Shown here piece by piece: positions 4,639 to 31,894 of a DNA stretch of 64,000 bases. The stretch comes from Cloacibacillus sp. An23 (GTDB lineage: Bacteria; Synergistota; Synergistia; Synergistales; Synergistaceae). Position numbers and translations under genes: made by a program. The notes below the pieces were generated by a model, which did no database searches, was not told the DNA's origin, and saw only the letters and a program-made list of their open reading frames with translations. The DNA is taken from positions 202,623 to 266,622 of the forward strand of contig NZ_NFJQ01000004.1 in the NCBI RefSeq assembly GCF_002159945.1, read 5' to 3'. Position 1 is the first letter of the stretch; each line of letters starts with the position of its first letter.

Positions 4639-5253
4639 ATGGACGCGATACTGCTCGCAGCCGGCCTGTCCAAACGCATGGGCCGCCAAAAGCTGCTGCT
4701 CCCCTTCGGAAACAAAACAGTGCTCGAAACAGTGATAGACAACCTGCGCGGCGCGGGAATAGAAAAAATACACGCCGTCATCTCGCGCGAAGTCGCAGCC
4801 GCGCTGTCCAACCTTCCGCCGTGCGTCGAGACGCGCGTCAACGAAGCGCCCGAACGCGGACAATCGAGCTCGCTCGCCATAGGTTTGGAAATGCTCGGCG
4901 AAAGCGGCGACTTCCTCATAATGCTCGGGGATCTCCCACTCGCCGCGTCCGAAGCGATAGCCGCGCTAGCGCGCCGCTTCGACGCGCTTCCGCCCGAAAA
5001 AACGCTGCTCGCCCCCTGCCGCGCGGGAATCTTCGGCCACCCGATGTTCTACCGCGCCGTCTGGCGCGAACGCTTCCGCGGCGCGCAGGGCGACGCAGGC
5101 GGCAGAAAAATCGTAACGCAATACGAACATGAAATAGAACGCATCGAAGCCCCCGACTGCCACTTCAAAGACATGGACACGCCGGAAGAATACGAGGAAA
5201 GAGTGCGCCAGGCGATAAGTGGCGCGAACGTGCGGGGAGAGAGTATAATATAG
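4639..5253 (+). CDS. MobA/MocA-type molybdenum cofactor nucleotidyltransferase
   Basis: The 204-residue protein opens with the nucleotidyltransferase signature LAAGLSKRMGRQKLLLPF. It also has NEAPERGQSSSLAIGL (residues about 68-83), the metal-binding LGDLP and the FGHPMFY motif of the MocA branch. Members of this branch attach CMP or GMP to molybdopterin to make the dinucleotide cofactor. It directly follows yqeC with a two-base gap, the arrangement expected when both serve a molybdenum hydroxylase. The last 16 codons contain a perfect TATAAT (5244-5249) that I interpret as the start of the small RNA unit described next. The stop is TAG at 5251-5253. Confidence 0.85.
   Translation: MDAILLAAGLSKRMGRQKLLLPFGNKTVLETVIDNLRGAGIEKIHAVISREVAAALSNLPPCVETRVNEAPERGQSSSLAIGLEMLGESGDFLIMLGDLPLAASEAIAALARRFDALPPEKTLLAPCRAGIFGHPMFYRAVWRERFRGAQGDAGGRKIVTQYEHEIERIEAPDCHFKDMDTPEEYEERVRQAISGANVRGESII
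5244..5249 (+). promoter_or_regulatory. Candidate -10 box for the CRISPR-like small RNA
   Basis: A perfect TATAAT lies inside the 3' end of the mocA-like gene, in otherwise GC-rich coding DNA. A start about seven bases downstream would fall at or beside the first base of the degenerate repeat at 5255. I see no good -35 box at 5218-5226, so the promoter may be weak or activator-dependent. Confidence 0.5.
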
Positions 5254-5254
5254 C

Positions 5255-5330
5255 GTCGCGTTTTCGCGTTTTGTTGAAACCATATTGAATTGGTAAAGGC
5301 TGCTCATACAGATAGGAGCGGTCTTTTTTA
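5255..5330 (+). ncRNA. CRISPR-derived regulatory RNA (psi-repeat plus psi-spacer) predicted to target the cas promoter
   Basis: Bases 5255-5280 form a shortened repeat. It begins GTCGCG, can fold CGCG-TTTT-CGCG, and ends GTTGAAAC, matching the start and the 3' handle of the two real arrays read in the crRNA direction. The following pseudo-spacer starts CATATTGAATTGGTAAA (5281-5297). The minus strand of the cas3 promoter reads CATATTGATTTAGTAAA (complement of 5363-5379), identical at 15 of 17 positions including the first eight. It is preceded on that strand by TTC, the type I-C PAM. Mismatches fall at positions 9 and 12. A terminator hairpin ends the unit at 5330. This resembles the known CreA and cas-regulating RNAs that guide Cascade to bind without cutting. 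Autorepression of this cas operon is inference. Confidence 0.75.
5297..5330 (+). terminator. Terminator of the mocA-like/small-RNA transcription unit
   Basis: AGGCTGCTC (5297-5305) pairs with GAGCGGTCT (5316-5324) through nine base pairs, two of them G-T, around a ten-base loop. A run of six T follows at 5324-5329. It separates the small RNA from the cas promoter. Confidence 0.75.
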
Positions 5331-5362
5331 TGTGCCCGTATAGGAATAATTTATTATTAAAT

Positions 5363-5382
5363 TTTACTAAATCAATATGGAA
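5363..5382 (-). promoter_or_regulatory. Protospacer-like site with TTC PAM, target of the psi-crRNA
   Basis: On the minus strand TTC (complement of 5380-5382) is followed by a 17-base stretch (complement of 5363-5379) that matches the pseudo-spacer at 15 of 17 positions. The seed match of eight bases is perfect and further matching stops after position 17. Partial complementarity with an intact seed and PAM is what is expected for binding without Cas3 cleavage. Confidence 0.7.
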
Positions 5383-5395
5383 TATATGATATAAT
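5363..5395 (+). promoter_or_regulatory. cas operon promoter
   Basis: This AT-rich stretch upstream of cas3 contains TTTACT (5363-5368) and TATGAT (5385-5390), 16 bases apart. TATAAT at 5390-5395 is an overlapping alternative -10. The contrast with the GC-rich surroundings supports a promoter. The -35 box lies inside the sequence matched by the small RNA. Confidence 0.6.
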
Positions 5396-5429
5396 AATTA
5401 CAGAAAAAACAACGAAAAGGTGATTTGTC

Positions 5430-7715
5430 ATGGAACGTTACGCCCACATCAGTAAAGACTTCAGAACGCAGACGCTTGACGAACATCTGAGAGGAACCGC
5501 GGAACTCTCGGCAAAATTTGCAGCCGTTGCAGGCATGGAGCGACTCGCAAAAATATTAAGCAAACAACATGACGCAGGGAAAAACTCGCATGGCTGGCAA
5601 TGCTATCTCAAGAAGAGCTCCGGCTTCGATACAAGCATACCTGATGCCGAATGCGACAAAGGCTCCCATTCTGACGCAGGGGCCGTTTATATGCTGAAAA
5701 ATTTCCCGAAGCCTCTGAACCTTCTGCTTGCGTACGTCATAGCCGGACATCATGCCGGTCTTCCGGATTTTTACGGCAGCGGACACGGCAAGGGACTTCT
5801 TGAACGATTTTTCGACGACGGCGAACGACTCAAAACAGAGCTGCTCGACGCGGCGGGAGAATACGCGAACATGCCTCTGCCTGAATGGTGTACGCCGTAC
5901 GAACTAACCAGATTTTATAAAGAATATACGAAAGAATATATTCACATGTGGGGGCGATTCCTTTTCTCGTGTCTCGTCGATGCAGACTGGCTCGACACGG
6001 AACGTTTTATGAAGCCGGAGGATTTCGCCGCCCGCCGCGAACCGATGGGGCTCGACGAACTGAAGCGGCGATTCGACGTTTACATTGAATCAAAGCGCCG
6101 CTCAGCGCCCGACAGCCGCGTGAACCGGATAAGAAATAAGATTCTTGAGCGCTGTATCGAAGCCGGCGGCATCGCGCCCGGCTTCTTCTCGCTTACAGTG
6201 CCTACAGGCGGAGGAAAGACGCTCTCGTCGCTCGCGTTCGCGCTCGTACACGCTCTGGCACACGGCAAGAGGCGCATAATCATAGCGGAACCCTACACGA
6301 GCATCATCGAACAGATCGCCAAGGTCTTAAAATACGGCACGGACGACGAAGAAGAGATAAAGCAGATGAAGGAGCGCGGAGAATGTCTGTTCGGGGAAGA
6401 GAACGTGCTCGAACACCACAGCAGCGTAGACCCCGACAAAGAGCTTTATACTAACCGTCTCGCAGCGCAGAACTGGGACGCTCCGATAGTAGTCACGACG
6501 AACGTGCAGCTGTTCGAGTCTCTTCTAGCGGCGTCGCCAGCGCGCTGCCGCAAGCTGCACAACATCGCGGACAGCATAATAATCCTCGACGAAGCGCAAA
6601 AGATCCCGGCTGAACACCTGAGCGCCGTCCTGTCGTCGCTGAAGGCGCTCGTCAAACATTTCGGCGTAACCGTGCTTCTATGTACAGCTACGCAGCCGGC
6701 GCTCAACGGCGAAATAGGCGGCGGTTCCGCCATCGTCGAAGGCATAGAAGAATGTACCGAAATAATTCCGGATACCGCTGGATTGTACGATTCGCTGAAG
6801 CGCGTAGAATACCGCGTTTATAAAGACGACATAACCAAAAAGGCGTCATGGGAAGAGATAGCCGGAGAACTTTCAAAAAAGTCTCAGGTTCTGTGCATCG
6901 TCAACAAACGCAAAGACTGCCGCGAGCTGGCGAAGCTGATGCCCAAAGGCACAATCCAGTTGTCCGGCTTTATGTGCGGCGAGGAGATAAGCGAACTTAT
7001 CTCCGAAATAAAGCGGCGTCTGAAACTCGGCGACGACGTCCGGGTCATATCGACGCAGCTTATAGAGGCGGGCGTCGACGTGGATTTTCCCAGCGTATGG
7101 CGCGCGCTCGCACAGCTCGACTCTATAGCGCAGGCGGCCGGACGCAGCAACCGCGAAGGCAGACTGGAAAAAGGAGAAATCGTCATATTCAATCCCGAAT
7201 CCGAGCCTTTCGGCGAAATAAAAATCGGAGCACAGGTCACGACGACTTTCGTGTCGAGGCCGGGATTCTTCGCAGAACTTTCGCCCAAGTCGTTCTACAG
7301 GTACTTCAGGAAGTTTTACGGTGATATGCACAGCCTAGACAAAAGCAGGTACACAGAACTTCTCGTAAAAGAAGCCGCAGAGGGACGCATACAGTTCCGC
7401 GAATTTGCCGAAGGATTCAAGCTGGTGGACACTTCGGGACAAAAGACTGTATTCGTACCGTACGGAGAAAACGGCAAACTGGGGCCGGAACTTATCGAAA
7501 GGCTCCGAGCCGAAGGCCCGAGCCGCGAACTGATGGCGTCTCTTCAGCGTTTTACGGTCAATATACCGGAGAGGCTGCTGAATGAGATCTACGCCAAAGG
7601 CGGTATAGAAGACGTGCACGGCTACTATGTGCTGAATAAAATCTTTTACAAACCCGGAGAAGGCATTATTACAGATTCATTGTATAATTATGATAAGGAT
7701 AATTTCATTTACTAA
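5430..7715 (+). CDS. cas3: Cas3, type I-C HD nuclease-helicase
   Basis: The 761-residue protein joins an N-terminal HD nuclease to a superfamily 2 helicase. The HD residues are visible as H47-D48 (SKQHDAGK), H80 (GSHSDAG) and H107-H108 (VIAGHHAG). Helicase motifs include VPTGGGKTLSS (K263), the DEAQ box at about 387-390, LLCTATQPAL and the motif VI region AQAAGRSNREG. The enzyme unwinds and degrades DNA marked by Cascade. AAGGTGAT at 5416-5423 is its ribosome site. It opens a run of seven cas genes on the same strand, and its promoter carries the protospacer-like site described above. All key residues look intact, so it should be active. Confidence 0.96.
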   Translation: MERYAHISKDFRTQTLDEHLRGTAELSAKFAAVAGMERLAKILSKQHDAGKNSHGWQCYLKKSSGFDTSIPDAECDKGSHSDAGAVYMLKNFPKPLNLLLAYVIAGHHAGLPDFYGSGHGKGLLERFFDDGERLKTELLDAAGEYANMPLPEWCTPYELTRFYKEYTKEYIHMWGRFLFSCLVDADWLDTERFMKPEDFAARREPMGLDELKRRFDVYIESKRRSAPDSRVNRIRNKILERCIEAGGIAPGFFSLTVPTGGGKTLSSLAFALVHALAHGKRRIIIAEPYTSIIEQIAKVLKYGTDDEEEIKQMKERGECLFGEENVLEHHSSVDPDKELYTNRLAAQNWDAPIVVTTNVQLFESLLAASPARCRKLHNIADSIIILDEAQKIPAEHLSAVLSSLKALVKHFGVTVLLCTATQPALNGEIGGGSAIVEGIEECTEIIPDTAGLYDSLKRVEYRVYKDDITKKASWEEIAGELSKKSQVLCIVNKRKDCRELAKLMPKGTIQLSGFMCGEEISELISEIKRRLKLGDDVRVISTQLIEAGVDVDFPSVWRALAQLDSIAQAAGRSNREGRLEKGEIVIFNPESEPFGEIKIGAQVTTTFVSRPGFFAELSPKSFYRYFRKFYGDMHSLDKSRYTELLVKEAAEGRIQFREFAEGFKLVDTSGQKTVFVPYGENGKLGPELIERLRAEGPSRELMASLQRFTVNIPERLLNEIYAKGGIEDVHGYYVLNKIFYKPGEGIITDSLYNYDKDNFIY

Positions 7716-7740
7716 CACAATAAATTAGGGAGGGATGTCT

Positions 7741-8445
7741 ATGGAGTATCACGACCCGTTGTACTGCCTCGAAGTGTGGGGGGATTACGCATGTTTTACG
7801 CGGCCGGAGCTCAAGGTCGAGCGCGTGAGCTATGACGTGATTACGCCGTCCGCCGCGAGGATGATCTTCCAGGCCGTCTTCTGGAAGCCCGCGATACGCT
7901 GGCAGGTCGAGCGCATCGACGTGCTGAGTCCGATACGCTGGGTCTCTGTGCGCCGCAACGAAACGGCTAAGCTCTGTTCGCCTAGCGGCAAGAGCTTCTT
8001 CATAGAGGATACGCGCCAGCAGAAGGCGGGGCTTTTCCTGCGCGACGTCAAATACAGGCTTTTCGCGCGGCAGATTTATCTGCCGCCTGACAAAAGGCCG
8101 AAGCTTTCGCGCGCCGCTTACGAGGATTACGCCGACGCGGAAGAGAAGACGGAGCGCGGAAAGGACGAGAATCCAGGCAAATATCACGCGATGTTCGAGC
8201 GCCGCGCAAAAAAGGGGCAATGCCTTTTCCAGCCTTATCTCGGCTGCCGCGAGTTCAGCTGCCACTGCAAGTTCGTCACTGAGCCGTACGGCGCGCATAG
8301 CGGCGAAACACGCGAACTCGGCCTCATGCTCTACGATATGGACTACAGCGACGAGGCTGACATCAAACCGATGTTCTTCCGTGCAAGGCTGGAGAACGGC
8401 ACGATAAACGTGCCCGCGCCGGAAAGCGGGGAGATTTTCAGATGA
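7741..8445 (+). CDS. cas5c: Cas5c (Cas5d), type I-C crRNA-processing and Cascade subunit
   Basis: In type I-C, which lacks Cas6, Cas5 cuts the pre-crRNA within the repeat and stays bound to the 5' handle. The sequence begins MEYHDPLYCLEVWGDYACFTRPELKVERVSYDVITPSAARMIF (shown by its ends: MEYHDPLYCLEVWG and TPSAARMIF), the typical Cas5d N-terminus. A glycine- and aromatic-rich C-terminal half contains CLFQPYLGCREFSC. An ATG also exists at 7735, but GGAGGG at 7729-7734 abuts it and is correctly spaced for ATG 7741, so I use the latter. The stop overlaps the cas8c start. Its substrate repeats share the handle TGAGTTGAAAC. Confidence 0.93.
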   Translation: MEYHDPLYCLEVWGDYACFTRPELKVERVSYDVITPSAARMIFQAVFWKPAIRWQVERIDVLSPIRWVSVRRNETAKLCSPSGKSFFIEDTRQQKAGLFLRDVKYRLFARQIYLPPDKRPKLSRAAYEDYADAEEKTERGKDENPGKYHAMFERRAKKGQCLFQPYLGCREFSCHCKFVTEPYGAHSGETRELGLMLYDMDYSDEADIKPMFFRARLENGTINVPAPESGEIFR

Positions 8446-10259
8446 TTTTGCAGTCGCTCGCGAACTACTATATCCGAAAGTCACGAAATCCAAGCCCGGA
8501 AAGCCGCGTAGCCCCGTACGGCATGGAATACAAGGAGATAAAATTCATCATCGAGATAGACGACGACGGGAGCTTCGTCAACCTCGCCGATTTACGCGAC
8601 GATAAAAAACGTGGTAAAACTCTGCTAGTACCGAAATCCGTCGGTCGCTCCGGCTCGGCAAGCTGGCAGACGGCGAATCTGCTCTGGGACCATTACGGCT
8701 ACGTTCTCGGCCAATCGAAGGCCGGGACGGAAAATCAGAACGCGGAAGGACAGCTTCGATCTTTCATCGCAAAAATAGAAAGCCTGCCCGAAGAGCTGAA
8801 AAGCGAGGAAGATATAGCCGCCGTCATTAAATGCTATCAAAGAGGCGAATATAAGAAAGTCCTGGAAAGCCCCAACTGGCCCGAATGCAATAAAATACCG
8901 GGCTGCAACATGACGTTCCGGCTTTTTTACGAAAGCCGCGCGGTTACGGAGAACAGGAAACTCATAGACTGGGCCGCGTCGGCGGTGAACGATGCGCCTG
9001 AAAAGGGCGGAGTCGTCGGGCGCTGCCTCGTGACCGGCGAAATAGGCGAGATAGCGCGCACGCACGCCAAGGTAGGCGTCGGAGGCAGCCAGGCTAACCT
9101 TGTCGGTTTTCAGAAAAACAGCGGATACGACTCGTACGGCAAGGAGCAGGGATACAACGCTCCGGTGTCTAAAAAAGCCGAGTTCTTCTACACGACGGCG
9201 CTGAATATACTGCTGAAGTCCCCAAGCAACAGGGCTCTCTTTCTAGACTCGAAGAAAAATATCCGCGTGGCGCTTCTCTTCTGGGCCGAGCCGCATTCCA
9301 TTTCTGAAGACGACGCGGCGGACGCCGAACTGGCAGTACGCGCGCTGATATACGGTTCGAGCGGCGAGAGCGGCGATGATGCCGACACAGGGATTAAAAA
9401 CGCTAAAAATATTTTCAAATCTATCTTCAACGGCAGCGTGCCGACTACGACAAAGGACAGATTCTGTGTGCTCGGCATCGCTCCGAATAAGGCACGCATC
9501 AGCGTCGTATTCTGGACACGCGGAACGCTGAAAGAAATCGCCCAAAATATCTATGAGTATGTGAAAGATGTAAATCTTGAAAACCGCGTAAATACAATAA
9601 CTCCCTCCGTCTATGACATCCTGCGCTCCTCCGAATACCAGGGAAAGATGGAAAACGTCCCGTCGAACATGATCCCCGCGATGGTCTATTCGATTTTCAA
9701 CGGAACGCCGTTTCCGTCCTCCGTATTCGGTCACGTCATGGCGAGAATACGCGCGGAACACAATCCGAGCAGCGTGCGCGTCGCGTTTCTCAAAGCATAT
9801 TTGAACAGAAAATACCGGAACACAAAAGGAGCTGAGCTACAAGTGGCGCTTGATAAGAATAACGCAAACACGGCATACAGGCTCGGAAGACTTCTCGCCG
9901 TACTACAGAAATTACAGGAAGAGGCGAATCCGGGCATCAACGCGACGTTGATGGACAGGTTTTACAGTTCCATGTCGTCGACGCCCGCGGCGGTGATTCC
10001 GACGCTGCTCCGCCTAAAAACGCACCATCTTGCAAAACTGCCGGTAGGCAGAAAAATCTTTTTCGAAAAAGTATTCACGGAGATATTCTCCAATCTCAAA
10101 CAGGGCGGCATTCCAAAACACATGTCGCTTGAACAGCAGGCCGATTTCGCCGTCGGGTACTATCACCAGCGCGAGGACTTGTTCAAGGAAAAAGATAAGG
10201 ATGCGTCAAACGGCAATAACGAGAGCGCGAACGGTACGAAAAGCGAAGACCAAAACTAA
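8442..10259 (+). CDS. cas8c: Cas8c (Csd1), Cascade large subunit
   Basis: The 605-residue protein is of normal length for Csd1/Cas8c. It begins MILQSLANYYIRK, then has the family stretch RSGSASWQTANLLWDHYGYVLG at about residues 66-90, the central VGRCLVTGEIGEIARTH, and TTALNILLKSP. Cas8c recognises the PAM and displaces DNA strands during Cascade binding. The ATG overlaps the cas5 stop by four bases. The C-terminus has an acidic, Asn-rich tail (KEKDKDASNGNNESANG) that looks like a variable extension. For the predicted autorepression, this is the subunit that would read the TTC next to the cas3 promoter site. Confidence 0.93.
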   Translation: MILQSLANYYIRKSRNPSPESRVAPYGMEYKEIKFIIEIDDDGSFVNLADLRDDKKRGKTLLVPKSVGRSGSASWQTANLLWDHYGYVLGQSKAGTENQNAEGQLRSFIAKIESLPEELKSEEDIAAVIKCYQRGEYKKVLESPNWPECNKIPGCNMTFRLFYESRAVTENRKLIDWAASAVNDAPEKGGVVGRCLVTGEIGEIARTHAKVGVGGSQANLVGFQKNSGYDSYGKEQGYNAPVSKKAEFFYTTALNILLKSPSNRALFLDSKKNIRVALLFWAEPHSISEDDAADAELAVRALIYGSSGESGDDADTGIKNAKNIFKSIFNGSVPTTTKDRFCVLGIAPNKARISVVFWTRGTLKEIAQNIYEYVKDVNLENRVNTITPSVYDILRSSEYQGKMENVPSNMIPAMVYSIFNGTPFPSSVFGHVMARIRAEHNPSSVRVAFLKAYLNRKYRNTKGAELQVALDKNNANTAYRLGRLLAVLQKLQEEANPGINATLMDRFYSSMSSTPAAVIPTLLRLKTHHLAKLPVGRKIFFEKVFTEIFSNLKQGGIPKHMSLEQQADFAVGYYHQREDLFKEKDKDASNGNNESANGTKSEDQN

Positions 10260-10271
10260 GGAGGAACTGTA

Positions 10272-11213
10272 ATGACCGAGCTTAAGAACAAATACGACTT
10301 TTTATTCTTCTTCGACGTCAAAGACGGAAACCCGAACGGCGACCCCGACGCAGGAAATCTGCCGCGCATCGACGCTGAGACCGGCGACGGACTTGTCACC
10401 GACGTCTGCATAAAACGCAAGATACGCAACTACTTCCAGATAACGGCGCAGGACAAGCCGGGGTTCGACATTTTCGTGAAAGAAAAGGCCGTCCTCAATA
10501 ACATGATAGCGGCGATGTACGACGAGCAGAACGGCGGAAAGACGCCCGATACCCCCGCGGAGACACAGGAGTTCGAGGACAAGACGCAGGCCGGAATGTG
10601 CCGCAAGTACTTCGACATAAGAGCCTTCGGAGCCGTCATGAGCACCGGCAATAAAGAGGAAGCTGACACAGGCGAAGCGGAACAGGCAGAAGAAAGCGGC
10701 AAAAAGAAAAAGGCCAAGACTAAAATCGTCAAAAAAGCAGGACAGGTGCGCGGCCCTGTGCAGCTCACCTTCTCCCGCTCCGTTGAACCGATCATCGCGC
10801 AGGAACATGCGATAACGCGAATGGCTGTCACAAATGAAAAAGACGCGGAGAAAGAACGCACTATCGGACGCAAGTACACTGTGCCGTACGGTCTCTACCG
10901 CGGCTGCGGATTCGTTTCGCCATACTTTGCGAAGAAAACAGGCTTCTCCGAGGAGGACTTGAAAGAACTCTGGAAAGCGATGGAAAATATGTTCGAGTTC
11001 GACCATTCTGCGGCACGCGGCATGATGAGCCTGCGCAAGCTCATTGTATTCAGGCACGATTCGGCGCTCGGCGACCGCCCTGCCTATGAACTTTTCGACA
11101 GGGTACAGTGCCGCCGCGTCACGGAAGGGCCTGCGCGCGGATATGAAGACTATTCCATCACGATAGACGGCAAGGAAGCCGAAGGAATTTTCGTCGAGCT
11201 TCCGGCAAAATAG
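10272..11213 (+). CDS. cas7c: Cas7c (Csd2), Cascade backbone subunit
   Basis: The 313-residue protein starts with the Csd2 signature YDFLFFFDVKDGNPNGDPDAGNLPR (key part DVKDGNPNGDP at about 15-25), followed by TDVCIKRKIRNYF. Multiple copies coat the crRNA spacer. A lysine-rich stretch near residue 150 (SGKKKKAKTKIVKKAG), preceded by an acidic part, is probably a flexible loop. The end is normal (EDYSITIDGKEAEGIFVELPAK). A near-perfect AAGGAGG lies at 10258-10264, eight bases before the ATG, consistent with the high copy number needed. Confidence 0.94.
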   Translation: MTELKNKYDFLFFFDVKDGNPNGDPDAGNLPRIDAETGDGLVTDVCIKRKIRNYFQITAQDKPGFDIFVKEKAVLNNMIAAMYDEQNGGKTPDTPAETQEFEDKTQAGMCRKYFDIRAFGAVMSTGNKEEADTGEAEQAEESGKKKKAKTKIVKKAGQVRGPVQLTFSRSVEPIIAQEHAITRMAVTNEKDAEKERTIGRKYTVPYGLYRGCGFVSPYFAKKTGFSEEDLKELWKAMENMFEFDHSAARGMMSLRKLIVFRHDSALGDRPAYELFDRVQCRRVTEGPARGYEDYSITIDGKEAEGIFVELPAK

Positions 11214-11215
11214 CC

Positions 11216-11914
11216 ATGAACAGCGACGACGCCGAGCTTCTCATCTCCGGCCTTCAGCATCTTACTTTCTGCGAGAAGCAGTGGGCGCTGATACATCTTG
11301 AGGGGCTCTGGGAGGAGAACGTGCTCACGGCGGAGGGCTCGCACCTTCACGAGCGGGTGCATAAAATCGGGAGAGAGAGCCGCGGCGAGGTAAAGCTCGC
11401 GACAGGGCTTGAACTCAGCTCCGCGAGGCTCGGGCTGTACGGCGTCGCGGACATGGTCGAGTTCCGTCACGACGAGGAGCGCGGCGTCCGCGTCGCGGCC
11501 TTCGGCGGGCGGCGCAGGTGGCTGCCCTACCCCGTCGAGTACAAACACGGGCGCAAACGTCCGGACACGGCCGACGAGATGCAGCTCTGCGCGCAGGCCG
11601 TCTGCCTTGAAGAAATGCTCGGCGTCGAGATACCTTCGGGCGCGGTCTACTACGGCGAGCCTAAACGCCGCACGGAAATAGAGCTTACGCCGGCGCTGCG
11701 CGCGAAGCTCGAGGAAAAATGCGCGCGCGCCCGCGCGATCATGAGCGGCGAGGCCGCGCCTGAATATAACGTGGGCAAACACTGCAAAAGCTGCTCGATG
11801 AACAAATTCTGCATGCCGGAGAAGACGGGCGGCCGCGACCGTTCAGCGCGCTACGTCGCCGGGCTCTTCCGGCTGCTTTCCGAAAATACCGGCGACGAGG
11901 AGGGCGGACTATGA
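11216..11914 (+). CDS. cas4: Cas4, RecB-like [4Fe-4S] nuclease for spacer processing
   Basis: This 232-residue protein has the Cas4 layout. An N-terminal cysteine lies in LTFCEKQWALI and the RecB-like nuclease core includes EGSHLHERVH, GVADMVEF and the catalytic VEYKHGR (residues about 105-111). The last three cluster cysteines are in CKSCSMNKFCMP near the C-terminus. Cas4 trims prespacers and selects those with a PAM before integration by Cas1-Cas2. It begins two bases after the cas7 stop and overlaps cas1 by four bases. It lacks a strong ribosome site, so translation is probably coupled to cas7. Confidence 0.93.
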   Translation: MNSDDAELLISGLQHLTFCEKQWALIHLEGLWEENVLTAEGSHLHERVHKIGRESRGEVKLATGLELSSARLGLYGVADMVEFRHDEERGVRVAAFGGRRRWLPYPVEYKHGRKRPDTADEMQLCAQAVCLEEMLGVEIPSGAVYYGEPKRRTEIELTPALRAKLEEKCARARAIMSGEAAPEYNVGKHCKSCSMNKFCMPEKTGGRDRSARYVAGLFRLLSENTGDEEGGL

Positions 11915-12945
11915 GACGTATGCTCAACAGCCTGTTCATAACGACGCAGGGCGCGTGGCTCTCGCTGCGCAACGGCAACATAGTCGTAAACGTTGACGGC
12001 GAAGAAAAGGCTTCGTTTCCCGCGATAAACTTCGGCTCCATACTCTGCTTCGGCCGCGTCAACGCGACGCCGCCGCTCATGGGCTTCTGCGCGGACAACG
12101 GGGTGTCTCTGTCGTTTTTCAAGGAAAACGGGCGCTTTCTCGCGCGCGTGCAGGGGCCAGTCCACGGCAACGTGCTGCTGCGTCGCGCGCAGTACAGGCT
12201 GGCGGACGACGAGAAGGCGTCCGCGGAAATCGCGCGCGACGTGCTGATCGGCAAACTGGCGAACACGCGTACAGTCCTCCGGCGCTTTCTGCGCGACCAT
12301 CCGCAGGAAGGAGAGGCGGCAGAAAAATTCCGCTCCGCGCTCTCCGTGACGGAGGCGCTCGCGCCGCAGCTCAAAGCCGCAAAAGATACGGAAGAGCTGC
12401 GCGGCTACGAAGGCACGGCGGCGCGCGCATACTTCGACGCCTTCGACGGAATGATCCTGCATCAGAAAGAACACTTCAAATTCACGGAACGCACGCGCCG
12501 CCCGCCGCGCGACGCGGTCAACGCGATGCTCTCGTACATATATTCGATACTTGCGAGCGAGGCCGCCTCGGCGCTCGAAGGCGCAGGCCTCGACCCCGCC
12601 GTGGGATTCCTGCACAAGGACAGGCCCGGCCGCCCGAGCCTCGCGCTCGACCTAATGGAAGAATTCCGCACATGGCTCGCGGACAGGCTCGTCCTGTCGA
12701 TGATAAACATGAAACAGGTGAAGCCCGAGGATTTCAGGACGAGCGAAAGCGGCGCGGTGGAAATGGACGGCGGCGCGAAGAAAAAGCTGATAGCCGAATG
12801 GCAGTCGCGCAAGCAGGACGAAATAACACACCCGTACACAGGCGAGAAAATGCCGATAGGCATGGTCCCGCACATGCAGGCGATGCTCCTCGCGCGGCGC
12901 ATACGCGGCGACATGAGGGAATATCCGCCCTTCGTCTGGAAATAG
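11911..12945 (+). CDS. cas1: Cas1, type I-C integrase
   Basis: The 344-residue Cas1 carries the I-C N-terminus MRRMLNSLFITTQGAWLSLRNGNIVV and the all-helical catalytic domain. The metal ligands are probably the glutamate in MLSYIYSILASEA, the histidine in VGFLHKD and the acidic residues in LALDLMEEFR, all present in order between about residues 200 and 255. It forms the integration complex with Cas2, which inserts spacers at the leader end of arrays. In this window those ends would be the right ends of both arrays. The ATG overlaps the cas4 stop, with GAGGAGGG as ribosome site. Confidence 0.95.
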   Translation: MRRMLNSLFITTQGAWLSLRNGNIVVNVDGEEKASFPAINFGSILCFGRVNATPPLMGFCADNGVSLSFFKENGRFLARVQGPVHGNVLLRRAQYRLADDEKASAEIARDVLIGKLANTRTVLRRFLRDHPQEGEAAEKFRSALSVTEALAPQLKAAKDTEELRGYEGTAARAYFDAFDGMILHQKEHFKFTERTRRPPRDAVNAMLSYIYSILASEAASALEGAGLDPAVGFLHKDRPGRPSLALDLMEEFRTWLADRLVLSMINMKQVKPEDFRTSESGAVEMDGGAKKKLIAEWQSRKQDEITHPYTGEKMPIGMVPHMQAMLLARRIRGDMREYPPFVWK

Positions 12946-12957
12946 GAGGCGTGCAAA

Positions 12958-13248
12958 ATGCTTGTTGTGGTAAGCTACGACGTGAACACGCAGAGCGAAG
13001 GCGGACAGAAGCGGCTGCGCCGCGTCGCGAAGCTCTGCGAAAAGTACGGCCAGCGCGTGCAGTTCTCCGTCTTTGAATGCCTCGTAGACCCGGTGCAGTG
13101 GACGGAGCTGAAATTTCAGCTCGAAAAAATGATAGACAAAGAGACGGACAGTCTGCGCTACTACTTCCTCGGCGCGAACTGGAAGAAGCGCGTAGAACAC
13201 TGCGGCGCGAAAGAGCCCTACGACCCGCAGGGCGTGCTGATATTGTAA
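12958..13248 (+). CDS. cas2: Cas2, adaptation complex subunit
   Basis: This 96-residue ferredoxin-fold protein has the opening beta strand MLVVVSYDVNT with the conserved aspartate, then RLRRVAKLCEKYGQRVQFSVFEC and the C-terminal VEHCGAKEPYDPQGVLIL typical of type I-C. It is the last gene of the cas operon. Only 17 bases separate its stop from the first decayed repeat at 13266. No leader or promoter fits in that gap, so the decayed repeats could only be transcribed by read-through from the operon. Confidence 0.95.
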   Translation: MLVVVSYDVNTQSEGGQKRLRRVAKLCEKYGQRVQFSVFECLVDPVQWTELKFQLEKMIDKETDSLRYYFLGANWKKRVEHCGAKEPYDPQGVLIL

Positions 13249-13265
13249 AATCAAGATAGCGAAAA

Positions 13266-13743
13266 GCCGCCCGCTTTAGCGGGCGTGAGTTGAAACCGAG
13301 AGGGAAACGGGCGAAGCATAAGGATATGGCTCGACCATATTTTGAAGACTGAGCTGAAAAAGGTCGTCGATTGGAGCCGCGTAGACAAGGACGATTATCT
13401 GCTAGCTATGGAACGCAGTCCTATAAAGGACGTGGAAATCAAGGCGCTGCTCAAAGCCGCGCTGACGGACAAAATCGACGACAGAGATACGTACATGAAG
13501 GGCGTGGACGCAAGCTACAGCTACGAAGGGTACGGCGTCTACAAAACGCGCGATTTGAGCGGAAACCGGTAAAGTTCGCCGCCGCGCGCGGCGTGAGTTG
13601 AAACTGCGGACACGGGAGGCAGGTCGTGAAGTAATCGTGTCGCCCGAAATTTTCGGACGTGAGTTGAAACTTGTCGCGGAATCACTCGTTCCATATCAGG
13701 TTGTATACCGCCGGTGCGTTTGCCTGCCGGCGCGGATTGAAAC
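13266..13743 (+). CRISPR. Decayed CRISPR array: four degenerate repeats after cas2
   Basis: Four repeat-like units read in the crRNA direction on the plus strand: 13266-13296, about 13574-13604, 13639-13670 and 13712-13743. The first three end GTGAGTTGAAAC and the fourth GGATTGAAAC. Their stems differ in sequence but remain paired: CGCCCGC/GCGGGCG, CGCCGC/GCGGCG and CGCCCGAAA/TTTCGGACG with one wobble. The interval between units 2 and 3 is 34 bases, a normal spacer; units 3-4 are 41 apart. Units 1-2 are 277 bases apart and hold a Fic gene fragment. This is a relic array. Pairing retained despite sequence change suggests the RNA structure mattered after the sequences diverged. Confidence 0.75.
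13297..13572 (+). pseudogene. Fragment of a Fic-family AMP transferase, cut at the active-site motif
   Basis: Immediately after the first decayed repeat, the frame at 13297 reads REGNGRSIRIWLDHILK, continues through VVDWSRVDKDDYLLAMERSP, and ends KGVDASYSYEGYGVYKTRDLSGNR with a TAA at 13570-13572. Fic enzymes have the motif HxFx[D/E]GNGRxxR. The fragment begins exactly inside it, with the HPF part and everything upstream missing. The repeat itself has an in-frame TGA, so nothing upstream can be translated into it. A TTG at 13342 could start a 76-residue C-terminal remnant, but the catalytic histidine is gone. The gene was broken at the repeat junction and is not a working toxin. Confidence 0.8.
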
Positions 13744-13795
13744 GGCTAACAGGAACAATGGGCCGATTATCGTTATTTTCTATTAAAGATGCGAA

Positions 13796-13821
13796 AAGGC
13801 GCGGCGTTCAGGCCGCGCCTT
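13796..13821. terminator. Bidirectional hairpin between the relic array and the dehydrogenase gene
   Basis: AAGGCGCGGC (13796-13805) pairs perfectly with GCCGCGCCTT (13812-13821) around a six-base loop. It lies between convergent transcription units. Read leftward it is followed by only a short T run (TTTCGC), so it is a modest terminator for the minus-strand gene and a weaker one for the plus strand. Confidence 0.55.
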
Positions 13822-13858
13822 CAATTCGTCGGTGTTTCGCAGTTTTCCCGCCGCTTCC

Positions 13859-14740
13859 CTACTCCTCCTGCGGGTCGTACAGGCAGTACAGAGACTGCGT
13901 GCCTTTGTTTTCGTAGCCGCCTTCGGCGAGTTCTTCGTAGAGCTCGCGCGTGAGGGTGAGGGCTGGGAGGTCTAGTTCCATCGCGTCGGCGGCTTCTTCG
14001 GCCAGTTTCATGTCTTTGATGTAGTGTTTGACGAAGAAGCCCGGCTCGAAGTCGCCTTTGAGGATACGCGGGCCGTAGTTGGCGAGGCTCCACGTCGCCG
14101 CCGAGCCGCCGCCTACCGCTTCGATGAATTCTTTGAGGTCGAGGCCGCACGATTTCGCGAAGGCGAGCGCTTCGCACATTCCGGTCATCGTTCCGGCTAT
14201 GACTATCTGGTTGCCGAGTTTCGCGTTCTGTCCGTCGCCCGCGCCGCCCATTAGTTTTATCGTGCGGCCCATCTCTTTGAAGTAGGGCAGCGCCTTTTCA
14301 AAATCTTCTTTGTCGCCGCCTGCGAATATGGTGAGCGTAGCTTCGCGCGCGCCTTTGTCGCCGCCTGTTACGGGCGCGTCGAGTATGCCGAGGCCGCGTT
14401 TTTTGCCGGCGGCGTAGATTTTGCGCGCAAGGCTCGGGCTCGAGGTCGTCATGTCGATGAGCAGAGCGCCCTCTTTCGCGTTTTCGACGAGGCCGTTTTT
14501 GCCGAGGTAGGTTTCTTCCACGTCTTTTGGAAAGCCGACCATCGTGAAAACGACGTCGCATTTCTTCGCTATCTCGGCGGGCGAGTCTTCCCATATCGCG
14601 CCGCGCGAGACTAGTTCGTCCGTCTTGGACTTTGTGCGGTTGTAGACGTGAAGCTCCCAGCCCGCGTCGAGCAGGTGTCCCGCCATGCTGTGGCCCATGA
14701 CGCCTATTCCTATGAATCCGAGTATTTTTTTGTCAGCCAT
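13859..14740 (-). CDS. NAD(P)-dependent beta-hydroxyacid dehydrogenase (GarR/3-hydroxyisobutyrate dehydrogenase type)
   Basis: The 293-residue protein opens with the Rossmann motif KILGFIGIGVMGHSMAGHLL. It contains the family substrate-binding stretch LDAPVTGGDKGAREATLTI at about 120-138 and the catalytic-lysine region GDGQNAKLGNQ at about 168-178, so it should be active. Members reduce tartronate semialdehyde to glycerate or oxidise 3-hydroxyisobutyrate. Sequence alone does not settle the substrate. The glycerate kinase-GntP-CdaR cluster at 17.9-21.8 kb makes tartronate semialdehyde reductase an attractive guess. GGAGTGATATAA precedes the ATG. The MscS gene lies only five bases upstream on the same strand, so they probably form one operon. 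Confidence 0.85.
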   Translation of the reverse strand: MADKKILGFIGIGVMGHSMAGHLLDAGWELHVYNRTKSKTDELVSRGAIWEDSPAEIAKKCDVVFTMVGFPKDVEETYLGKNGLVENAKEGALLIDMTTSSPSLARKIYAAGKKRGLGILDAPVTGGDKGAREATLTIFAGGDKEDFEKALPYFKEMGRTIKLMGGAGDGQNAKLGNQIVIAGTMTGMCEALAFAKSCGLDLKEFIEAVGGGSAATWSLANYGPRILKGDFEPGFFVKHYIKDMKLAEEAADAMELDLPALTLTRELYEELAEGGYENKGTQSLYCLYDPQEE

Positions 14741-23847: not shown

Positions 23848-26345
23848 GTTTCAACTCACGCGTCCCGCGGGGGACGCGACGAGTTCTCTCGCTCATGGGA
23901 GGCCGACAATGCCGGTTTCAACTCACGCGTCCCGCGGGGGACGCGACGGGCGCATGAAGGAGTGTGAGACATGGCACAGCCGTTTCAACTCACGCGTCCC
24001 GCGGGGGACGCGACTTCTCCTAGGGCATAACAAGCGTTCACTTTCCAGTTTCAACTCACGCGTCCCGCGGGGGACGCGACTATTTTCGAGCGTGATTTGG
24101 AGTGGGGTATCAAGTTTCAACTCACGCGTCCCGCGGGGGACGCGACGAGAAGCAGATAAAATGGGCGGCGGAAATCCGAGGTTTCAACTCACGCGTCCCG
24201 CGGGGGACGCGACGCAACGGTATGGTCTGCGATATACCAACCTAGCGTTTCAACTCACGCGTCCCGCGGGGGACGCGACGCGCAAGGCAGCCGAGGCCGA
24301 GAGCGGTGCACTGTTTCAACTCACGCGTCCCGCGGGGGACGCGACACGATAGTCACGGTCATCCCCGGCTGGGACACCGTGTTTCAACTCACGCGTCCCG
24401 CGGGGGACGCGACTTTGGCGCTTTCGGGGTTCCATAGCTGCATTCCGTTTCAACTCACGCGTCCCGCGGGGGACGCGACGCAAAGACGAAAACGTGCCCG
24501 ACGACACGCCAGAGTTTCAACTCACGCGTCCCGCGGGGGACGCGACGGCGCAGTTGAGCGCGACTGACGGTTCAAGGCCGTTTCAACTCACGCGTCCCGC
24601 GGGGGACGCGACTAGGCATGGGGACGGCAGATTTACGTTATAGAGCTGTTTCAACTCACGCGTCCCGCGGGGGACGCGACAGGCAAGCGATACGGCATTT
24701 GGAAAGACAACATCGTTTCAACTCACGCGTCCCGCGGGGGACGCGACATTCTTTCAGCTCTGTAATTTCTTCAAAATGTGGTTTCAACTCACGCGTCCCG
24801 CGGGGGACGCGACTTTTAGGGATAAGTCGTACACTATACCTGTATGGTTTCAACTCACGCGTCCCGCGGGGGACGCGACGCCGCGCGAGGTGGAGCGTCA
24901 GAAGTTGAATCTGTTTCAACTCACGCGTCCCGCGGGGGACGCGACCAACAGTATATTCAATCTGGACACGATTTTTAGTTTCAACTCACGCGTCCCGCGG
25001 GGGACGCGACCCCTTCTCGACGTCATCCGCTCGCTGCCGGAGGAGTTTCAACTCACGCGTCCCGCGGGGGACGCGACGCGACGTCTTCGCGGAGGACTGC
25101 TGTTTCTTCGAGGTTTCAACTCACGCGTCCCGCGGGGGACGCGACGGCGAAGGTGCAGGCGTTTGTGGATTATATCTTGGTTTCAACTCACGCGTCCCGC
25201 GGGGGACGCGACGTGTAATTTACGCTATGACCGCTACCATCTTGGTTTCAACTCACGCGTCCCGCGGGGGACGCGACTACATAGACCTCTGCGCCTCGGA
25301 CACGATAGACGAGTTTCAACTCACGCGTCCCGCGGGGGACGCGACTAAGGTATCCGTCCACTGTATGGCTCTTCTGGAAGTTTCAACTCACGCGTCCCGC
25401 GGGGGACGCGACGATGCAGCAGCAGAAACGTAAGTTTACAGAATTCAGTTTCAACTCACGCGTCCCGCGGGGGACGCGACCAATCAAAAATCGTAGGGTG
25501 ATGCGGATGTTTGTTTCAACTCACGCGTCCCGCGGGGGACGCGACAGTATTTACCGTCGAAGAGCTCAAGCGCCAGTACAGTTTCAACTCACGCGTCCCG
25601 CGGGGGACGCGACGCAAAAGAAATGAACAGCATGTTTGACTATCGAGTTTCAACTCACGCGTCCCGCGGGGGACGCGACTCCTAGTTATCAGTTGCCCGA
25701 AGCCATCCCGGTCGTTTCAACTCACGCGTCCCGCGGGGGACGCGACTTGAAAATCGTAATTGTCATGGCAAAACTGACAGTTTCAACTCACGCGTCCCGC
25801 GGGGGACGCGACGCGGCGATATTGTCTTTTTAACTCTTCGACGGTGTTTCAACTCACGCGTCCCGCGGGGGACGCGACGCGGCTAACGGCCTATATGAGC
25901 GAGATTACGTCGGTTTCAACTCACGCGTCCCGCGGGGGACGCGACAAAATCAACATGGAGGCGCTGTAAACACTTGTAGTTTCAACTCACGCGTCCCGCG
26001 GGGGACGCGACCCAACTCTCCGCACGTGAATTTGATATGATACCGGTTTCAACTCACGCGTCCCGCGGGGGACGCGACGCCGCAGTGCCCCAGTAGTCCG
26101 GCCCGCTCTGATGTTTCAACTCACGCGTCCCGCGGGGGACGCGACTAGACGTTGTTGTTCTCATTGTCGGAGGCTCTAAGTTTCAACTCACGCGTCCCGC
26201 GGGGGACGCGACCTGGGGATGTGGGTATATAAGCCGTTTGTTTATCGTTTCAACTCACGCGTCCCGCGGGGGACGCGACAACGCAAAAGGATGGAGCATT
26301 GACGCCATCGAAGTTTCAACTCACGCGTCCCGCGGGGGACGCGAC
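23848..26345 (-). CRISPR. CRISPR array 1: 38 repeats of 33 bases, 37 spacers
   Basis: I count 38 repeats with starts from 23848 to 26313. On the plus strand each begins GTTTCAACTCACGCGTCCC and ends GGGGGACGCGAC. No base change is visible in any of them. Spacers are 32-35 bases and all appear different. Read on the minus strand the repeat ends GTGAGTTGAAAC, the type I-C handle. The crRNAs therefore come from the minus strand and the leader end is the right end (26346 onward). The repeat hairpin is CGCGTCCC/GGGACGCG. The uniformity suggests an active, recently maintained array. No cas gene adjoins it; the only set is 10 kb away. Confidence 0.97.
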
Positions 26346-30290: not shown

Positions 30291-31708
30291 GTTTCGACTC
30301 ACGTGCTCGCGAGGAGCGCGACATATATCGTTATACATATACTTGACCACATCACGGTTTCAACTCACGCGCTCGCGAGGAGCGCGACGCAAAAAAGCGC
30401 TGACGGGTCATTCGTGTACCCGTTTCAACTCACGCGCTCGCGAGGAGCGCGACACCGGCACCCACGCCGGTCGTACAGAGCAGTTTGCAGTTTCAACTCA
30501 CGCGCTCGCGAGGAGCGCGACTGAGGCCGTCGCTGTAGTTCTTGAGGTAGCTTATGTTTCAACTCACGCGCTCGCGAGGAGCGCGACTCGATGAGTTTTT
30601 CGAGGTCTGCCGGTGAGTAGGGGTTTCAACTCACGCGCTCGCGAGGAGCGCGACTAGGCCGCGGCGTATGGCGAGGCCGCCGCTTAATGGTTTCAACTCA
30701 CGCGCTCGCGAGGAGCGCGACCTCTGGGGCACGTACCTCTTCAAGCGCCGTGGGTTTCAACTCACGCGCTCGCGAGGAGCGCGACCGCGCACGAGGCCGC
30801 GATAAACAAGCATAACAGGTTTCAACTCACGCGCTCGCGAGGAGCGCGACGGATGCTCTTTAGTATTTATGGCCGGAGAGACAAGTTTCAACTCACGCGC
30901 TCGCGAGGAGCGCGACACGGATGCTTTAGCAGTATCTATAGACGACACGGTTTCAACTCACGCGCTCGCGAGGAGCGCGACGCGCAGCGGCCCTTCACGA
31001 GTCGGAACAGAGCAGTTTCAACTCACGCGCTCGCGAGGAGCGCGACGAAGGTACAGGCGCGTATCTAGCAGTGGATGGCGTTTCAACTCACGCGCTCGCG
31101 AGGAGCGCGACAAAATTCGCCCGACACGGATATTATACCACAGGAGGTTTCAACTCACGCGCTCGCGAGGAGCGCGACTGCGTTTCGCAATAGGTCTATA
31201 GTCCCATTTGATGTTTCAACTCACGCGCTCGCGAGGAGCGCGACAAAAAAGGCGAGCGCGGCATGGCGCGCGGCTATGGTTTCAACTCACGCGCTCGCGA
31301 GGAGCGCGACGGCGAGACGACGACACAGTACCTTTTAGCGCCTGGTTTCAACTCACGCGCTCGCGAGGAGCGCGACCAGTCACAAGTCAAAAAGTTGTGC
31401 CTTGACGGCAGTTTCAACTCACGCGCTCGCGAGGAGCGCGACGGCTCCTGACCCGCGAAGCGCACGAAGCCGGCCGGTTTCAACTCACGCGCTCGCGAGG
31501 AGCGCGACTCCTTGCGCCGCTCAGCGATAAGCCCCTTAGAACGTTTCAACTCACGCGCTCGCGAGGAGCGCGACGCTTTTTCGCTCATAACTTCACCTCC
31601 TCACCACACTGTTTCAACTCACGCGCTCGCGAGGAGCGCGACCGAGCACGCTGTTCCGCTGTCCCGTCAGGCTCTTGTTTCAACTCACGCGCTCGCGAGG
31701 AGCGCGAC
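30291..31708 (-). CRISPR. CRISPR array 2: 22 repeats of 32 bases, 21 spacers
   Basis: Twenty-two repeats run from 30291 to 31708. On the plus strand each begins GTTTCAACTCACGCGCTCGC and ends GAGGAGCGCGAC. The leftmost copy is degenerate (GTTTCGACTCACGTG), which marks the trailer end. The right end is therefore the leader end, and transcription is on the minus strand, as the handle GTGAGTTGAAAC also demands. A further very decayed copy may exist at 30224-30255: its last seven bases, GCGCGAC, match and a 35-base spacer-sized gap follows it. The stem CGCGCTC/GAGCGCG differs from array 1. Spacers are 32-36 bases and distinct. Confidence 0.97.
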
Positions 31709-31894
31709 TGTACTATAAATAAGTACGGACATGATAGCACTTTTTCGATATTTTGCGCGAAGCGCAGGCTTCGGCGGTTTTCATTGTGCCTGTGTTTCAA
31801 CGATTTTCCGTTTTTCTCGGACGCGGCGCGGAGCGCGAAGCTTCGTGGAATTTTATGCGCGCTTCAGGTTCGCGGGCGCGCATGTGTGCGGCCC
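31709..31894 (-). promoter_or_regulatory. Leader of CRISPR array 2
   Basis: It is homologous to the array 1 leader with conserved blocks at constant distance from the last repeat (ACGG at +17, CACTTTTTC at +30, GGTTCGCG at +159). TATCAT on the minus strand lies at the place of TATTAT in leader 1. It is GC-skewed and noncoding. Confidence 0.7.

Follow-up and report, generated by a model that had tools for sequence, protein, structure and literature searches.

Ahead of cas3 in Cloacibacillus sp. An23 (Synergistota) lies a short unit in which a degenerate CRISPR (clustered regularly interspaced short palindromic repeats) repeat is joined to a guide that matches the predicted promoter of the cas operon itself. 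The unit occupies positions 5244-5329 of the window, as we call the whole stretch of 64,000 nucleotides that was analysed (contig NZ_NFJQ01000004.1, positions 202,623 to 266,622, forward strand). Judged from its sequence, it is very probably the gene for a Cas-regulating RNA (CreR) of type I-C that would let Cascade repress its own cas operon. This reading starts from direct observations: a degenerate repeat, a guide match, a protospacer adjacent motif (PAM), a target located before cas3, a complete operon, and recurrence of the unit in other loci with covariation between guide and site.

The guide unit and its target before cas3

The region 5244-5329 looks like a small gene, with a TATAAT box, a pseudo-repeat, a guide of about 14-17 nt and a terminator-like hairpin. 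Its parts and its target are as follows.

5244..5249, + strand: predicted -10 box TATAAT of the guide RNA, 5 nt ahead of the pseudo-repeat (sequence)
5255..5280, + strand: pseudo-repeat, a degenerate type I-C repeat of 26 nt, GTCGCG...GTTGAAAC (sequence; fold)
5270..5280, + strand: 11-nt 5' handle expected after Cas5c cleavage (presumed cleavage position)
5281..5297, + strand: guide (pseudo-spacer) CATATTGAATTGGTAAA, 15/17 matched to the site before cas3
5295..5329, + strand: predicted intrinsic terminator, an 11-bp hairpin (5295-5326) with a T-run (5324-5329, six Ts)
5363..5379, - strand: target site (protospacer) in the predicted cas3 promoter (pattern match)
5380..5382, - strand: PAM TTC (complement of 5380-5382), immediately 5' of the target (sequence; triplet control)
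5387..5395, + strand: predicted extended -10 of the cas promoter, TGATATAAT (by eye)

The unit sits between an NTP (nucleoside triphosphate)-transferase-like gene (4639-5253), whose 3' end contains the TATAAT box, and the host's own cas3. The degenerate repeat thus adjoins the cas operon and stands outside the arrays, as would be expected of a CreR. It folds to a 4-bp stem, CGCG-UUUU-CGCG, followed by the 3' handle, and the last 8 nt of the handle, GTTGAAAC, are the same as in the array repeats of this genome. The handle is taken to begin at 5270, a cut site that we deduce from the usual processing by Cas5c. The predicted RNA, 5255-5329, is 75 nt long and folds into the 4-bp stem and the 11-bp hairpin with a minimum free energy of -22.9 kcal/mol (z -3.3). 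A terminator scan of 5050-5500 found none, its loop limit being 8 nt and the loop of this hairpin 10 nt; an Rfam search of 4900-5500 gave no match up to E = 1.

Of the 17 guide bases, 15 agree with the minus strand of 5363-5379; the mismatches are at guide positions 9 and 12, and positions 1-8 agree perfectly. When the whole 64 kb was searched for the guide pattern with up to 3 mismatches, only the guide and its target were found, the chance expectation being 0.04. When the 500 bases before cas3 were dinucleotide-shuffled 5000 times, the observed score was never attained, nor was it by any of 5000 shuffled window guides. Among the 64 GTTGAAAC units of the window (the guide unit, 3 beside cas2 and 60 in two arrays), the guide unit alone has a TTC-flanked match scoring at least 11 anywhere in the 64 kb, and this match falls just before cas3. 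TTC is a type I-C PAM (PMC8406640). The window thus holds what is described for CreRs, partial complementarity to the predicted cas promoter beside a PAM. Relative to the promoter start set by the extended -10 TGATATAAT, the target covers about -39 to -23, and this predicted start lies about 30 nt ahead of the cas3 ATG.

Most of these elements had been proposed in a first-pass annotation of the same DNA, and they are borne out. The 26-base remnant repeat with its GTCGCG start and array-handle end is present in the sequence, as is TTC directly 5' of the site; the 15/17 match with all eight seed positions perfect is recovered by pattern search; and the guessed RNA length of 70-75 bases agrees with the 75 nt predicted by folding. 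Two proposals need adjustment. The 17-base guide holds as regards the match, but its unpaired part is probably only about 14 nt (5281-5294), because 5295-5297 pair in the hairpin stem. The site was also said to cover a probable -35 box. TTTACT (5363-5368, paired with TATGAT in a consensus search) does lie under it, but this is a weak call, with 1 promoter-like site against 0.7 expected in shuffles, and the extended -10 is clearer.

Recurrence of the unit and covariation of guide and site

Next, we consider type I-C loci in other genomes, which were drawn from four sources. These were the window's phylum, Synergistota (Cas5c matched in 33 of 185 genomes, in 30 of them above cut-off); named genomes scanned with an alignment of Csd2 (best 80 of 591), after a scan with the window's Cas3 as query had found nothing; the family of a Desulfobacula metagenome-assembled genome (MAG) carrying locus L097 (24 of 86); and the class of a Coriobacteriaceae MAG carrying locus L155 (46 of 396). 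Matches below the Cas5c cut-off and one partial match (G232) were left out. Loci without a detectable cas3 start were not scanned (15 of 80 and 5 of 65 in two batches, plus L053, L054, L063, L072 and L075). The 155 loci with a usable cas3 start were reduced to 145 regions by removing L079 (same contig as L046), the near-duplicates L052, L069, L070 and L156, and five loci with less than 150 bases upstream (L060, L062, L112, L121, L138). Each region comprised up to 700 nt before cas3: 25 from the phylum, 60 from the mixed set, 40 from Coriobacteriia and 20 from the Desulfobacula family. The cas3 starts of these loci are tblastn estimates and the promoters are predictions. In the same-genus genome G001 the contig begins 51 bases before cas3, and comparative support comes from other genera and phyla.

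In each region, the 24 bases after every TTGAAAC or TTGAAAT were taken as a guide and the best TTC-flanked site in the same region was scored, with a threshold of 10. A unit was present in 17 of the 145 non-redundant regions, the window included (17 of 81 handles). Besides the window these are L064, L066, L097, L155, L171, L193, L194, L198, L199, L200, L202, L205, L208, L210, L212 and L227. Controls were nearly empty: 200 decoy 7-mers gave 0 hits from 1964 occurrences, and when the flanking triplet was exchanged, TTT gave 2 regions and every other non-TTC triplet at most 2. An earlier control on 94 regions gave 5 loci from 25 TTGAAAC sites and 1 from 814 decoy-word sites. By set, units were found in 12 of 40 Coriobacteriia regions, 3 of 25 from the window's phylum, 2 of 60 in the mixed set drawn from the best 80 of 591 (L097 and L155) and 0 of 20 from the L097 family, counts which depend on the choice of genomes drawn.

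Beyond the strict 17, likely units are L201 (one-change handle, TTC), L197 and L051 (both TTT), and L207, whose two tandem TTC-flanked sites reach 8.5 at best by manual count. Handles with one mismatch gave 18 of 640 against 7 of 3131 decoys and added L201 with TTC; when TTT and CTC were permitted as well, the figures were 21 of 640 and 10 of 2928. Since looser handles raise the background, the headline count is kept to the strict set. No unit was found in L216 (genome G343). In L048 (G051, 12098-14348), Cas3 is encoded in two overlapping pieces (query residues 20-446 and 439-749) in separate open frames, a broken or split protein.

Comparison of guides between loci revealed clear covariation. 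The guides of the 17 loci share little, and each fits its own region, with scores of 10-15.5 against a mean foreign score of 3.2 (272 swaps). Sixteen of the 17 guides score best on their own region among the 17, the exception being a tie of the L198 guide with the L194 region; this tie apart, the best foreign score over the 144 other regions is at most 9.5. For L066, shuffling gave 0 of 5000 regions and 0 of 5000 guides that attain its score. Guide and promoter thus covary between loci, as would be expected of CreRs.

The mismatches are also distributed in a particular way. Guide position 6 is mismatched in 13 of 17 units and position 12 in 12 of 17, against 0-3 units at any other of positions 1-11. 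As the detection score left positions 6 and 12 unpenalised, detection was repeated with a plain score, which gave 15 hits with a mismatch at position 6 in 10 and at position 12 in 9, and 0-4 at other positions up to 14. In type I Cascade, Cas7 flips out every sixth base, and 6 and 12 are the positions so affected. In L207, one of the Coriobacteriia loci, a single unit faces its two tandem sites (about -250 to -90 before cas3); its guide without bases 6 and 12 is identical, by eye, with the second site over 17 nt, for which plain pairing offers no explanation.

These patterns bear on two other readings. An antisense RNA pairing with the 5' end of cas3 mRNA, with no guidance of Cascade to DNA, would fit the complementarity of the guide to the + strand and the position of the targets in L201 and L064, which lie by eye downstream of a possible -10. 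It would leave unexplained both the preference for TTC (17 loci with it, 2 or fewer with each other triplet) and the mismatches at 6 and 12, and the window target, being upstream of the predicted start, would be absent from the mRNA. We regard it as extremely improbable. Alternatively, the unit could be a solitary-repeat RNA anti-CRISPR (Racr) that sequesters Cas proteins in a non-functional complex, its guide match being incidental. Promoter-driven solitary repeats of this kind are known in viral genomes, and one tested example is type I-C (PMC10651486). A mere trap does not account for bases after the repeat that match a PAM-flanked site, significantly by shuffling, and covary with it in 17 loci; moreover, the unit's neighbours are the NTP-transferase-like gene and the host's cas3, and not the viral surroundings of solitary repeats. 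This reading, too, is highly improbable.

The central proposal of the first-pass annotation, a crRNA (CRISPR RNA)-like RNA that would guide Cascade to its own cas promoter, is therefore supported at the level of sequence by covariation, by the kept TTC and by recurrence in 17 of 145 regions. It had called for just such a comparison, covariation with seed and PAM kept, and the outcome, with 16 of 17 guides best at home and TTC retained, went its way.

Architecture of the units and the cas operon of the window

The units share an orientation. In 16 of 17 the unit points toward cas3, in 16 of 17 the PAM read in the direction of cas3 is GAA, and in 12 of 17 the PAM lies at most 150 nt from the estimated cas3 start. 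Repeat starts were set by script and are uncertain in some loci. With these starts, 16 of 21 units, the strict 17 and the four likely ones taken together, have a TANNNT box 4-8 nt before the repeat, the spacing being 6 nt in 10 cases; the background at random positions is 6%. The window is scored negative here because its scripted start is 5 nt too far upstream, though its TATAAT is visible by eye. Across units, the median z for folding of the sequence after the guide is -4.4. An array is visible in the retrieved DNA of 10 of 16 other loci that were inspected. There the pseudo-repeat handles are array-like, often a few bases off, while loops and stems vary. In L066 the pseudo-repeat GTCGTGCC...GGCACG stands against GTCACGCC...GGCGTG in its array, a paired change. 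The same logic appears in L064 as a mini-array of two repeats on the opposite strand.

Some loci show further features. In L097 (722-800), L227 (about -472) and L051 (about -180 before cas3), the target overlaps or adjoins the predicted promoter of the guide RNA itself, which suggests that these RNAs would repress themselves; L227 has a second, weaker site (score 9) downstream. Between unit and cas3, L097 contains an open reading frame (ORF) of 43 aa with a hydrophobic stretch (943-1074); in L066 a small one is recognisable by eye at about -345 to -165 relative to cas3. Each is a possible toxin or leader peptide.

Several observations weigh against the CreR reading. Like the uncertain repeat starts mentioned above, some concern detection: the strict test is negative in 128 of 145 regions, which makes the unit an optional device, and L064 is weaker than the other units, 17 of 5000 shuffled guides (and 0 of 5000 regions) attaining its score. 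The site lies 289-472 nt ahead of cas3 in five of the 17 (L066, L097, L202, L210, L227), and there it may act on a different promoter. Others concern structure. A stem of at least 5 occurs in 19 of 21 units, but also in 33 of 60 other handles and at 30% of random positions, so that stem formation does not discriminate; several other loci have no evident T-run after the hairpin by eye, and the terminator there is a prediction. In the window itself, the downstream fold is only modestly exceptional (z -1.8, against -3.3 for the whole RNA), the pseudo-repeat is degenerate (26 nt, 4-bp stem) with handle bases next to GTTGAAAC unlike those of the arrays, and the mismatches are at 9 and 12, not 6. 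Finally, in the type I-B system of Haloarcula, transcription of a test gene still stood at 67% of the control with a 16-bp spacer (PMC10989794), and a guide of 14-17 nt might accordingly repress weakly.

Downstream of the guide unit, the window carries a full type I-C operon, cas3-cas5c-cas8c-cas7-cas4-cas1-cas2, at 5430-13248. The profile matches agree with the subtype proposed at first pass.

5430..7715, + strand: cas3 (TIGR01596 above cut-off; TIGR01587 at 93.6 bits, below its cut-off of 102.45)
7735..8445, + strand: cas5c (TIGR01876)
8442..10259, + strand: cas8c (csd1) (TIGR01863)
10272..11213, + strand: cas7 (csd2) (TIGR02589)
11216..11914, + strand: cas4 (TIGR00372)
11911..12945, + strand: cas1 (TIGR03640)
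12958..13248, + strand: cas2 (TIGR01573)
23848..26345, - strand: CRISPR array with 38 repeats GTCGCGTCCCCCGCGGGACGCGTGAGTTGAAAC
30357..31801, - strand: CRISPR array with 21 repeats GTCGCGCTCCTCGCGAGCGCGTGAGTTGAAAC and one more GTTGAAAC unit at its far end

The repeats of both arrays end in GTGAGTTGAAAC. These intact arrays lie 10-18 kb away from cas2, on the opposite strand, and differ in their repeat stems. Genes resembling UDP-xylose synthase and xanthine permease lie in the interval that separates them. Directly after cas2, at 13264-13670, there are three degenerate repeats, apparently a decayed array, and no TTC-flanked site in the window matches the bases following them with a score of 11.

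Such degenerate repeats beside cas2 are what one would cite for regarding the guide unit, too, as a remnant of a dead array, with a spacer once taken by mistake from the cas promoter and nothing functional today. To our knowledge, self-targeting spacers are tolerated only when inactive, which points the same way. A relic, however, should decay in the seed too, and would not show guide-site covariation in 17 loci with TTC kept and mismatches within positions 1-12 concentrated at 6 and 12. A promoter-like box and a hairpin also flank the unit. We consider such an origin quite unlikely.

The small ORFs of L097 (43 aa) and L066 (by eye) recall instead the CRISPR-regulated toxin-antitoxin modules (CreTA), in which the RNA is the antitoxin (CreA) and the targeted promoter drives a small toxin and not the cas operon. 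The logic and the one- or two-repeat layout are shared with creA (PMC9458426). In the window, though, no toxin gene stands under the targeted promoter, which agrees with CreR and departs from CreTA: a predicted promoter start about 30 nt before the cas3 ATG leaves no space for one and leads straight into cas3. In 12 of 17 loci, moreover, no more than 150 nt separate the PAM from the estimated start of cas3. A CreTA module is very unlikely.

Proposed mechanism and relation to known systems

The CreR reading implies the following course of events. Transcription would begin downstream of TATAAT at 5244 and terminate at 5324-5329, giving the 75-nt RNA; Cas5c would cut it at the pseudo-repeat and leave the 11-nt handle; and the RNA would load into the system's own Cascade. 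Led to the TTC-flanked site in the predicted cas3 promoter, Cascade would block transcription of the cas operon without cutting by Cas3. After pairing over about 14-17 nt the guide meets the hairpin, and the full R-loop that recruits Cas3 would thus not form. The first-pass idea that cutting is prevented by mismatches past position 17 is a plausible conjecture for I-C; on the sequence, the guide seems to be ended early by the hairpin itself. In Haloarcula (I-B), spacers of up to 24 bp repress without interference even when Cas3 is active, and CreA works via an 11-bp seed (PMC10989794). The outcome would be homeostasis: free, unused Cascade would load the guide and shut the operon, and repression would lift when array crRNAs or anti-CRISPRs occupy Cascade. 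Competition by array crRNAs and relief by anti-CRISPRs are carried over here, by analogy, from CreR reviews (PMC12737573; PMC12948488).

CreRs have been reported for types I-B, I-E and V-A (PMC13131331). As portrayed in PMC13131331, PMC12948488 and PMC12737573, they resemble the window unit in being crRNA-like RNAs with partial complementarity to the cas promoter, predicted to act in autorepression through the cognate effector, without a toxin gene. The window unit differs in belonging to type I-C, whose repeat is processed by Cas5 and not Cas6 (PMC10651486), and in having one pseudo-repeat and a guide ended by a terminator-like hairpin, not by a second repeat. This departs from the two-repeat mini-CRISPR layout, which we do not take as defining for CreR because creA genes have one or two repeats (PMC9458426). 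With CreA (PMC9458426; PMC10989794) the unit shares one or two degenerate repeats, a short guide with an 11-bp seed and, by prediction, promoter repression by Cascade; it differs in targeting the predicted cas3 promoter with no room for creT. With Racrs, including their type I-C case, it shares a single repeat behind its own promoter, in the window a predicted one, but Racrs are viral inhibitors with solitary repeats (PMC10651486) and the window unit has a covarying guide. A parallel also exists outside type I. In type II-A, the long form of the trans-activating CRISPR RNA (tracr-L) represses the Cas9 promoter. There, too, a short guide of natural origin makes the effector repress the operon that encodes it; effector class, RNA and promoter are different.

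No type I-C CreR is apparent among the papers listed by literature searches, judged by titles and abstract openings, and a prediction may be contained in Liu et al. 2023 (Cell Host Microbe), the founding CreR paper. Against known CreRs, what the sequences would add is another subtype, the one-repeat build ended by a hairpin, and a large comparative set; the logic is already known.

A broader proposition seems to us an even bet. Type I-C systems may have a widespread class of one-repeat, terminator-ended Cas-regulating RNAs in which a hairpin takes the place of the 3' repeat and sets the paired length of the guide to about 11-19 bases. Such an RNA would be born unable to trigger Cas3 and would act as a sensor of free Cascade; some (L097, L227, L051) would limit their own dose, and guide and promoter would be rewritten together across at least Synergistota, Desulfobacterota and Coriobacteriia.

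The natural guides suggest which base pairs serve binding without cutting: PAM TTC, positions 1-5 and 7-11, with 6 and 12 free. This pairing pattern might serve as a rule in designing guides that silence genes through native type I-C systems, for example in Coriobacteriia, where shuttle vectors and I-C editing are available (PMC9734109), and the covariation offers a direct route to testing self-regulation. If the CreR reading is true, a sizeable share of some I-C lineages (12 of 40 Coriobacteriia loci) would carry a built-in guide that makes Cascade a self-repressor, and cas expression would track the demand for Cascade and respond to anti-CRISPRs.
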